The position numbers and the translations under genes are program-made. A stretch of 37,373 nt of DNA from Myxococcales bacterium (GTDB lineage Bacteria > Myxococcota_A > Bradymonadia > Bradymonadales > Bradymonadaceae), in NCBI GenBank assembly GCA_007131755.1, contig SLPW01000386.1, positions 1-37,373 of the forward strand, read 5' to 3'. This document shows positions 13,331 to 16,406 of the stretch, piece after piece. The notes under the pieces are model-generated. The model saw only the letters and a list, made by a program, of their open reading frames with translations. It made no database searches and was not told the origin of the DNA. How positions within the stretch are numbered: position 1 is the stretch's first letter; the number at the start of each line of letters is the position of its first letter.

Positions 13331-14758
13331 ATGGAAAATCTCCAGGGTGGCACGCTCGCTTTAGAGCACCACTATCACCTCGACAAACGCCTCGACTCCT
13401 TCGGTCTCGTCACCGTCTATGCAGGAACTCAGGATCCCTTCGATCTCCCCGTTCGTGTGGCCGTCTACGGTGGACTGCTGGAAGCCGACGCCGGACCCGA
13501 CGTCGCCGAGCGCATCAAGGACGCAGCCCATCGCTCCAGCCGCCTTCGCAGCCCGGGGCTTCTTGCCACCGTCGACTTCGGTGAAATCGAGGAAGGCGTC
13601 CCCTTTGTCATCGAGAGGACCGTCCCCGGACCTTCGCTGTCGGATCGAATGGAACAGAAGAGCGTCTTTTCGCCGGACCAGGTCGTCGAACTCGTCAGTC
13701 GACTGGCCCACGTCCTCCAGCCCATTCACGACGATCAACTCTATCACGGTTGCCTCAAGCCGGAGTGGATCTTCTTTCCCTCCGACGACGCTCCCATGGA
13801 TCGGGCCTGCCTGGCCCACGTGGGAATCTCTCCCTCCATGAGCGAGCTCACCTCCATGGCGCAGGCCGTCTTGACCACCGATCTGGTCGACGCCTTTGCG
13901 CCGGAGAGCTTCGACGTCGCCGCCCGCGATCAGGGCGATGACGACGATCCTGCTCCTCGACCTCATCTCAGCGCCGCTTCCGATCAGTGGGCCCTGGCCT
14001 GCACAGCCTATCGCCTCCTCGTCGGCGTCCATCCCTATTTTGATGATCCCGTCGACGCCAGTGAAGGGATTCTTCGCATCAAGACCGAAGATCCGCCATC
14101 TCTGTCCGAGATGGGAATCGATGAAGAGATCGCTCAGGTCATCGATCGCGCCCTTCATCGTGACCCCCAGCGCCGATGGCCCACCGTCACCGCCTTCGCC
14201 CGCGCTCTCGACGAGGCTGTCCACGGTCGCGCCACTTCCGAATCCTCTGCTGAGACGGATTCCGATCCCGACGACGAATCGACCTCTCCCATTGTCCCTA
14301 CCCCCCAGGATCTCGACGAGCCCGATCTCGCCACCGACGACGTAGAACTGGCCGGCCCGGGCCCCAGCGGCTATTTGCTCACCATCGCCCTGGCGGCACT
14401 GCTGTTGACGAATCTGGGCTGGTTCTTCGCCCTTTTATACGATCAGCCTGATGACGACGATCCCGACGAACCCTCCGTCGCCCAGGCCTCCGAACCGGGC
14501 GTCCTTCCCGCCGAACTCATGGGCACTCAGATTGATACCACTCCGACGGCGGCACAGATCGTCGAGATTCGATCCGACGGCACGGAGGCCCCCCTGGATA
14601 CGACCCCCCTGTCGGTCTCGGAACTTCTCGATCAACGCTCGCGAATTGAGCTCCTGCTTCGCCAGCCGGGTTATGTCGATCATCGGCTCACCATCGACGC
14701 CAGCGAGACCCGCCAGGATATTCAAATCGAGCTGATCGCCGACAACGTCGACGGCTGA
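13331..14758 (+). CDS. Membrane-anchored pseudokinase with C-terminal PEGA-like domain
   Basis: Residues about 10-290 have the overall plan of a bacterial Hanks-type Ser/Thr kinase, with recognisable late-lobe features: SAASDQWALACTAYRLLVGVHPYF near 215-238, and DRALHRDPQRRWPTVTAFARAL near 274-295. The catalytic residues are missing. The VAxK lysine position reads VAVYGG (about 44-49), the HRD loop reads YHGCLKPEWIF (about 138-148), and no DFG is present (LAHVGIS instead). An acidic linker (300-340) leads to a single membrane helix near 347-370, then a C-terminal PEGA-like segment (EAPLDTTPL and LLLRQPGYVDHRLTI). The product is thus probably a non-catalytic sensor or scaffold with its PEGA-like domain outside the cytoplasmic membrane. 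It begins 9 bases after ggt and is probably cotranscribed. Confidence 0.82.
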   Translation: MENLQGGTLALEHHYHLDKRLDSFGLVTVYAGTQDPFDLPVRVAVYGGLLEADAGPDVAERIKDAAHRSSRLRSPGLLATVDFGEIEEGVPFVIERTVPGPSLSDRMEQKSVFSPDQVVELVSRLAHVLQPIHDDQLYHGCLKPEWIFFPSDDAPMDRACLAHVGISPSMSELTSMAQAVLTTDLVDAFAPESFDVAARDQGDDDDPAPRPHLSAASDQWALACTAYRLLVGVHPYFDDPVDASEGILRIKTEDPPSLSEMGIDEEIAQVIDRALHRDPQRRWPTVTAFARALDEAVHGRATSESSAETDSDPDDESTSPIVPTPQDLDEPDLATDDVELAGPGPSGYLLTIALAALLLTNLGWFFALLYDQPDDDDPDEPSVAQASEPGVLPAELMGTQIDTTPTAAQIVEIRSDGTEAPLDTTPLSVSELLDQRSRIELLLRQPGYVDHRLTIDASETRQDIQIELIADNVDG

Positions 14759-14812
14759 GCTCTTCATCATCTCTTCCCGCTGACGGTTTCCGACAATTTT
14801 TTTACAGTGTCC

Positions 14813-14840
14813 TTGACATTTTTTAATTCTGCTGTAATTT
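14813..14840 (+). promoter_or_regulatory. Strong sigma-70 promoter for a candidate small RNA
   Basis: A perfect TTGACA is followed after 16 bases by TAATTT, inside an unusually A/T-rich stretch with a T-tract just upstream at 14796-14803 that could act as an UP element. It is the best promoter match in the window and there is no convincing reading frame downstream on this strand, which points to a non-coding transcript. Confidence 0.65.
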
Positions 14841-14846
14841 TGGGTG

Positions 14847-15182
14847 TGCATGGTCAGTTGTGACGGATTTGGTTCCACCACGGTTGAGATATTACAGTCA
14901 CCATGGAATACAATCTGACCTGCTGCTGTTTTGAGCTATGAGTACCACGAGTTCGTAAGCGGCACCGTGCTCTTTCGTGTGCGAGGTAGGTTGCATCTTT
15001 TCACCATTCTTTCCTTCTTTCTTTCCTTATACCCTTCCAGGAATTCTCTTCAAATTCCTTCCGACTTACTTCGCACACGAAAGAGCACGGTCCCCGGACT
15101 GAGTCCCTCCAGACAAGACAATCGCTTCACTAGCAAGACAGCACCCGAACCGGCACCTCTTAAAGAGGTGTCGGTTTTTTTT
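14847..15182 (+). ncRNA. Candidate structured small RNA with a 30-bp stem and UC-rich loop
   Basis: The 450-base gap between the pseudokinase and aspartate kinase genes has a strong promoter at 14813-14840 and a strong intrinsic terminator at 15148-15182, defining a transcript of about 335 bases. Within it, 14964-14993 pairs with 15062-15091: 21 perfect Watson-Crick pairs, then nine more including three G-U pairs. The enclosed 68-base loop (14994-15061) is nearly all pyrimidine, with repeated UUUCC and UUCCUUC words that could pair with Shine-Dalgarno sequences. I see no match to tmRNA, RNase P RNA, SRP RNA or an obvious 6S RNA. The only open frame across it (from a TTG at 14931) has no ribosome binding site and runs through the stem and terminator, so coding is unlikely. 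Confidence 0.55.
15148..15182 (+). terminator. Intrinsic terminator of the candidate small RNA
   Basis: CCGGCACCTC and GAGGTGTCGG form a ten-pair stem (one G-U) with a short TTAAA loop, extended at the base by A-T pairs and followed by a run of eight T. The T-run is only on the plus-strand side, so it terminates rightward transcription and separates it from the convergent aspartate kinase gene. Confidence 0.9.
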
Positions 15183-15209
15183 GTCCCTCACCTGTCTCGC
15201 AACGGCTGT

Positions 15210-16406
15210 CTATCGGTCGCCTAGAAACTCCCGGTGCAACGCCTGCGCCGCCGCCTCCACCCCCTGCGAATCGACGACCCAGCTCAACCGATCGGGATAG
15301 ACCACCAGGTGATGGCGATCCACATCCACCCCGTCGAGAGCGCGGCGACCCTCACGTGCCCAACCGCAGCGTCGACCGATCCCCCGTCCCACCACACTGA
15401 CCAGCCCCGCCATGCGAACCGCCACGTCCTCACCGATCTCGATGAGGGACTGGCGAAAGGAGTCCACTCCGTGGACATCGTCGAGCGTCAAGAAGGCCCG
15501 AGCCGAATCGCCCGGCGTCCACTCCAGCACGGCGCAATCATGGTCGTCGAGAAAGGCCATCACCGCATCGGCGCTTGGCGACGCCTCCATCCACAATCCC
15601 CGCTCCACGTGACTGACAGCCACCGCCGGACATCCCTGCTCCACACGCTCGATCTCGTCCTGGTCCAGATCGATGCGTCGAATCAAGGTTCCACCGCGGC
15701 CGCCGCCGTAACTGCTGCGTGCATATAGTGCGATCTGCGCCCTCCGGGCGAACTCCACTGCCTCCTCGTTGAGCACTCTGGCCCCGCTTCGGGCCATCTC
15801 CTGCATTTCCTCGTAGCTCAGGCTCTCCAACTGATGGGCGTCGAGCACCACCCGCGGATCGGCGCTATAGACCCCATCGACGTCGCTGTAGATCTCGCAG
15901 GCTTCGGCCCCCAGCGCAGCCGCCAACGCCACCGCCGTGGTATCGCTTCCCCCGCGTCCCAGAGTGGTCACGTCGCGCCGATAACTCGCCCCCTGGTAGC
16001 CGGCGACGATCACGATCCGATCCTGGGCCAACTCGTCCTGAACCCGAAAGGGACGCACGTCCATAATCCGGGCGTTCGCGTGGCTATGAGTGGTGATGAT
16101 CCCACATTGCGATCCCGTCAAGCTCACCGCCTGGTGTCCGTAAGAGTGGATGGCGATGGACATCAGGGCCATGGAGATTCGCTCTCCTACGGACAGCAAC
16201 ATATCCAACTCGCGCCGTGAGGGATCGTCGGATAACTCCTTTGCCATCTCCAGCAGATCGTCTGTCGTATCTCCCATGGCTGACACGACCACCACCAGAT
16301 CGTAGCCCCGCTCTCTGGTGGCCACGATCTTTTGCGCCACCTTTCGGATCCGATCCAGATCCGCCAGTGATGAACCCCCGTATTTCTGCACCAAGATATG
16401 ACTCAT
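15210..16406 (-). CDS. lysC: Aspartate kinase
   Basis: The 398-aa cytoplasmic enzyme phosphorylates L-aspartate in the first step of lysine, threonine, methionine and diaminopimelate synthesis. The N-terminal amino-acid kinase domain is intact: [11 protein letters not shown] near residues 6-16, [14 protein letters not shown] near 39-52, the GERIS motif near 73-77, and [21 protein letters not shown] near 147-167. [13 protein letters not shown] near 174-186 is also typical. The C-terminal regulatory part (about 260-398) is present at usual length, but the ACT-domain effector motifs are poorly conserved. The expected S-E-I-x-I-S type strand is replaced by [14 protein letters not shown]. The start lacks a clear ribosome binding site. 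It lies 40 bases downstream of the zinc-ribbon protein gene, so the two may be cotranscribed. Confidence 0.92.

Follow-up and report, generated by a model that had tools for sequence, protein, structure and literature searches.

Rho is a hexamer whose crown contacts RNA through six clefts with a preference for YC (PMC12350095), and the consensus for its rut sites, such as lambda tR1, is 70-80 nt of unstructured RNA with more C than G and a cytosine every 11-13 nt (PMC6407284). These sites are parts of mRNAs and are followed by single-stranded RNA and pause sites. Rho can be inhibited by proteins such as Rof/YaeO and Psu (PMC11018626, PMC11718236). An RNA element called RARE (Rho-antagonizing RNA element) in the Salmonella mgtCBR leader has been proposed to keep Rho in an inactive complex, and it acts in cis, in a leader beside a rut site. 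To our knowledge no natural Rho inhibitors other than proteins or cis elements have been described, and our literature search, with partial coverage, turned up neither a report of a natural decoy RNA for Rho nor any work on Bradymonadales small RNAs. Other proteins are titrated by the multivalent decoys CsrB/RsmY, CrcZ and 6S RNA, which have dedicated promoters and present GGA motifs, A-rich motifs or a promoter mimic to their partners. Exposed C-rich loops are found in sX13, B11 and the CCUCCUCCC-motif sRNAs of Rhizobiales, and these are short loops with one seed.

The RNA described here lies in a window of 37,373 nucleotides, by which we mean the whole stretch of DNA that was analysed. It shares the composition and spacing of a rut site, but the rut-like loop is closed by a stem of 25-32 bp, and the RNA stands alone and has an intrinsic terminator. 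In contrast to RARE it is a separate gene, and the two are not known to have any sequence in common. Like CsrB/RsmY, CrcZ and 6S RNA it has a dedicated promoter and, by inference, the logic of a multivalent decoy, although it lacks their partner motifs and has no Rfam match, and where sX13 and its like have short loops it has a single loop of 61-83 nt with six periodic units. Our preferred reading is that this small structured RNA is a trans-acting decoy for Rho, which would make it similar to Rof/YaeO and Psu in target and outcome, the difference being that those are proteins. We regard this as the best explanation at hand and give it a probability of roughly 0.45, so that it is a little more likely to be wrong than right; binding and inhibition are both inferred. 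The RNA would thus work like a protein-titrating sRNA, again by inference; it belongs to no known family, and as a rut site it fails in the feature of a free 3' strand. Within the searches made, an RNA with a stem-closed loop of six units is previously undescribed and without an Rfam family.

A hairpin RNA gene with its own promoters and terminator

The elements of the gene are listed here with their coordinates in the window.

14802-14840, plus strand: promoter P1 with its boxes; TTGACA-N16-TAATTT at 14813-14840, box TTACAG at 14802-14807 upstream and box CTGTAAT overlapping the -10 (read from the sequence; same arrangement of boxes in several relatives)
14884-14910, plus strand: promoter P2, TTGA-N4-TTACAG-N7-GGAATA (aligned in 15 relatives)
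14961-14993, plus strand: 5' arm of the 30-bp stem, its inner part GAGGUAGGUUG conserved in the family (inverted-repeat search, alignment)
14994-15061, plus strand: pyrimidine loop of 68 nt, C far exceeding G, with six units at about 12-nt spacing (composition, autocorrelation, unit fitting)
14995, 15007, 15019, 15031, 15044 and 15055, plus strand: starts of the loop units (six-unit fit)
15062-15094, plus strand: 3' arm of the stem (inverted-repeat search, alignment)
15147-15182, plus strand: intrinsic terminator, 14-bp stem and U tail (sequence scan; terminators in relatives)

A mechanical search of 1.1 kb (14500-15600) returned the arms 14961-14991 and 15064-15094 as the sole inverted repeat. 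The predicted fold of 14847-15182 has a minimum free energy of -125.6 kcal/mol, compared with -83.3 +/- 4.4 for shuffles (z -9.6). It is clear from the alignments that the stem covaries. With six relatives, 12 pairs show changes on both sides, and among 21 aligned hairpins of the family 93.8% of the stem cells are paired and 14 of the 25 pairs carry double changes, a level of pairing and covariation reached by 0 of 500 shuffles. If the partner is shifted by one, two or three columns, the pairing in the same hairpins falls to 30-45%. Double changes occur in 21 of 25 pairs when three hairpins of the family are aligned with three from outside it; this alignment was fitted to the structure by the model, which favours a pairing result. 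On the plus strand the stem contains 61 G-U cells versus 8 A-C cells, and the selected molecule is therefore the plus-strand RNA.

A DNA-level element without RNA function, i.e. a recombination site or an inverted repeat bound by a protein, would account for the long inverted repeat and for the inversion of the block in some genomes (see below). We consider it very unlikely, as the G-U excess is present on one strand only, a dedicated promoter and a terminator have the same orientation, and the composition of the single-stranded loop is conserved. An early idea of a retron msr-msd was abandoned, no reverse transcriptase gene having been noticed nearby.

The best conserved promoter element is P2, far more so than P1, which lies about 70 bases upstream and scores under the rule of a simple promoter scan, so that the scan reports no promoter. 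The P2 pattern TTGA-N4-TTACAG-N7-GNAATA is present in 9/21 genomes of the family, in one copy each that in every case directly precedes the RNA, with no matches in the reversed control, and scanning the 21 family genomes for further promoters of this pattern yielded only the RNA's own promoter and no regulon. Since TTACAG/CTGTAAT boxes are found at both promoters and their placement fits, P1 and P2 probably answer to one dedicated regulator, itself unidentified; this is inferred from sequence alone. The predicted transcript, for which there are no transcript data, would be about 265 nt from P2 and about 335 nt from P1. An intrinsic terminator follows within about 100 bases past the hairpin in 13/19 family genomes, compared with a chance rate of 2/611 in 102-base pieces, and went undetected in five of the six f5 genomes. 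In one locus outside the family (L274 in G021) a downstream GCCTGGCGG, followed by TTTGCTTT, offers the hairpin's 3' arm a second pairing partner; this could be a terminator/anti-terminator switch.

The RNA unit is flanked by a kinase-like gene (Pfam Pkinase) and by lysC (15210-16406, minus strand), with which it is convergent, the gap being downstream of lysC, and the placement is the same in all 19 family genomes that have the RNA. There is no credible protein gene inside the region; a 97-aa open reading frame was discounted as it crosses stem, loop and terminator. Relative to its neighbours the RNA is flipped in four genomes (G010, G001, G007 and G006; loci L204, L205, L207 and L208), and in G001 and G010 the conserved promoter is inverted jointly with the hairpin, the block sitting between the same two genes. 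Promoter and hairpin thus invert as a block, which therefore behaves like a free-standing gene. In genus g24 the hairpin is upstream of the Hsp33 gene, followed by lysC, so that the lysC neighbourhood is common to two families. In f5 it is upstream of hslO-lysC.

These positions could point to a cis-acting element for Rho loading or attenuation, where the loop would be a rut site that terminates its own transcript and guards the gap between convergent genes or controls hslO-lysC. It is favoured by the f5 arrangement and by the position in most family members, where convergent genes face each other with their 3' ends on either side of the element. Against it are the RNA's own promoter, the intrinsic terminators in the 13 family genomes above, the double-stranded RNA directly after the loop and the finding that in at least two genomes promoter and hairpin have flipped together within the same gene pair. 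A terminator dedicated to one gene ought not to withstand such an inversion. We find the cis element an unlikely alternative to the decoy.

Distribution in the family, the class and beyond

A covariance model found the RNA in 19/21 genomes of the window's family, two of which carry two tandem copies of the hairpin; the family is one of Bradymonadales-type bacteria. Of the two genomes without it one is 77% complete, and the other is 86% complete and shows only a fragment of a rho gene. A second and a third model added nine further genomes from four other families of the class (G021, G050, G129 and six of genus g24), whose hairpins have stems of about 15-25 pairs and mostly open loops of 68-83 nt with about six units, and whose stems have no evident sequence in common with that of the window. 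The same loop plan thus stands behind unrelated stems in these nine genomes, and it is therefore the loop and not the stem sequence that is kept. With the covariance models there was no match in the other genomes of a 379-genome phylum sample nor in 45 genomes reached via other loci; strict filters on large genome sets can miss weak matches. Among viral contigs the stem pattern matched 104 times, and the covariance model confirmed none of the 80 that were scored. Plasmid and phage records held no match to the RNA. Rfam 15 gave no family at gathering score in the window region or in the loci of seven relatives, and at E values up to 10 only sub-threshold noise appeared in the window region. Collectively, these results show a conserved structured RNA family that is absent from Rfam and, in the samples searched, limited to one bacterial class, still without transcript data.

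A mechanical scan of 1.5 Mb of both-strand sequence for stems of 14 or more pairs around C-rich, G-poor loops returned the known hairpins, one hairpin on contig C154 and five others that were clearly weaker (18 pairs at most). The C154 hairpin (G000:C154:10567-10670; L283, L220) is also a second, weak match in the window's own genome, at 39 bits with model R3, and has a stem of about 18 pairs and a C-rich loop. It was rejected as a second copy: it lies across the start codon and the signal-peptide stretch of a lipoprotein-like gene and is absent from the matching gene in G020. Separately, a 33-base match to the start of the loop (GUUGCAUCUUU...CUUUCCUUCUUUC) lies without a stem near a contig end (G000:C192:2974-3006, L004), possibly as a fragment or by chance.

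An earlier note on this locus, made without database searches, had described the hairpin 14964-14993/15062-15091 with three G-U pairs and a 68-base loop, a strong T-tailed terminator, a lack of credible protein genes and no match to tmRNA, RNase P, SRP or 6S RNA. All of this held, the hairpin exactly, and for the last four no covariance model matched the window region at gathering score. Its strong promoter TTGACA-N16-TAATTT held in part, being present yet below the scan rule and far less conserved than P2, and so did its transcript of about 335 bases, which fits P1 only. Its placement of the gap upstream of lysC failed. The claim that the G-U pairs signal RNA pairing rather than a DNA inversion is supported by the 61 to 8 count, and that of a new small RNA gene by conservation, covariation, an own promoter, terminators and the absence of an Rfam match. 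Of the checks that it had asked for, the Rfam search gave no family at gathering score and the comparison with relatives gave both conservation and covariation of the stem, so that none of its refuting conditions came true, transcript data being absent.

Composition and six-fold rhythm of the loop

The loops of the 21 family hairpins are 61-73 nt long with 32-46% C and 5-16% G, and predicted folds of the window and of most relatives show little or no pairing within the loop, with some weak pairing in the G050 loop. The autocorrelation of cytosines in the family loops peaks at 12, 24 and 36 nt, and the Fourier spectrum peaks at 12-12.5 nt. A six-unit fit gives the consensus [A/U]UC[C/U]YN[C/U]C, each unit holding two YC steps, with spacings between fitted units of 12 nt (56 cases), 13 nt (30) and 11 nt (24). 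When compared with within-loop shuffles, the Fourier signal in eight diverse family loops has a combined p of 4e-15 for purines and 2e-6 for C; these loops are related to one another, which makes the combined values optimistic. Six loops from other families show the C periodicity at p 3e-7, and here the rhythm is not fully independent evidence, as the loops were found with models already containing the family loop. Among single loops the rhythm is clearest in G008, where the 12-nt repeats are near-perfect, and in G001, whose repeats read CCUACC.

It is possible that the RNA is instead a base-pairing sRNA whose exposed UUCCUUCC repeats block the translation of several mRNAs by pairing with their Shine-Dalgarno regions. 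The single-stranded loop is rich in CCUUCC/CCUCC, and the C-rich-loop sRNAs sX13 and B11 are precedents (PMC3771888, PMC12395582). Against this, the two letters between the CC doublets differ (UU 68, CU 18, UA 16, CA 10, and others), so that CCUUCC is frequent among the loop units with variable middle letters (no targets were assessed), and some genomes have mostly CCUACC units, which are not complementary to GGAGG. Six copies at a fixed spacing of 12 nt are not needed for pairing, and no single seed is best conserved across families. The pairing of the loop with ribosome binding sites, as suggested in the earlier note, is not excluded, yet it is not the best reading: what stays constant is the repeat, six-fold and with a 12-nt rhythm, and what changes is the sequence between the CC doublets. 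From sequence alone we infer that such a pattern suits a hexamer reading spaced YC more than it suits pairing with GGAAGG.

Rho as the putative partner

The host genome encodes a full-length Rho whose primary-site segment aligns to that of E. coli Rho almost unchanged, so that a cognate Rho with a YC-binding primary site is at hand. The loops meet the rut criteria of length and C excess (the 68-83 nt of the other families included), of cytosines every 11-13 nt and, in predicted folds, of unstructured RNA. Free single-stranded RNA 3' of the site is not provided, as every member has its loop closed by the long stem. The loop fits the sequence criteria of a rut site, and together with the number of units, the closed loop and the lack of a free 3' strand this makes a decoy the simplest mechanism.

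In this mechanism the dedicated promoter would cause the RNA to be made under some condition, and the long stem would keep a single-stranded loop of about 70 nt open with six UCYYNYC units at 11-13 nt. In the Rho crown the units would fill the six clefts that bind YC, and the circular path of the crown would suit a loop with both ends held together. Because double-stranded RNA follows right after the loop, Rho would lack a free 3' strand for threading through its central channel and would be stuck in an unproductive state, and Rho-dependent termination elsewhere would be reduced. The tandem duplication of the hairpin suits titration. The binding to Rho, its inhibition and the timing of RNA production are inferences, for which there are no binding or expression data.

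Several points speak against the decoy. The loop also resembles an anti-Shine-Dalgarno sequence, the f5 hairpins, mostly without a detected terminator, would fit a cis role, and the RNA is confined to one class although Rho is nearly universal. Moreover, with two YC steps per unit, the match to the nucleotides per subunit of a fully bound Rho is an assumption.

It also cannot be excluded that the RNA is a sponge or scaffold, with the logic of CsrB/CsrA, for some other RNA-binding protein, oligomeric or with repeats, that recognises spaced pyrimidine motifs. The repeat number, the spacing and the open loop would suit any multivalent pyrimidine binder, and the conservation throughout the family with a dedicated promoter is equally in line with this possibility. 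Against it, no other common bacterial hexamer with a YC preference and a footprint of about 12 nt per subunit is known to us. CsrA itself is an unlikely partner: CsrB/RsmY-type RNAs have many GGA motifs in the loops of the transcribed strand, and here GGA is on the opposite strand, transcription being on the C-rich strand because of the G-U bias, the promoter and the terminator.

The host genome also encodes a second, short Rho (G000:C150:1780-2733, L251) of about 320 aa, which begins with an Arg/Gly-rich tail and is without the N-terminal primary RNA-binding domain. Within the window's family 19/21 genomes have it, and the other families tested do not. An interaction with the biology of the RNA is possible; as a required partner it was dropped, since hairpins of the same plan exist in families without it.

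A bolder form of the decoy reading is that the RNA is a natural trans-acting Rho inhibitor in which six YC units, held in a ring by the stem, are shaped to fit the crown of the hexamer, and here we lean slightly towards doubt. With the same reserve it may be added that the ring would have been kept over much of a bacterial class with the stems changing freely. If true, a stand-alone RNA would mimic the six-site landing ring and cells would regulate global termination through RNA titration, and work on how Rho loads and how its ring opens would gain a small ligand of natural origin. If the partner is not Rho, the hairpins still form a conserved family outside Rfam with an unusual loop of six-fold 12-nt periodicity.
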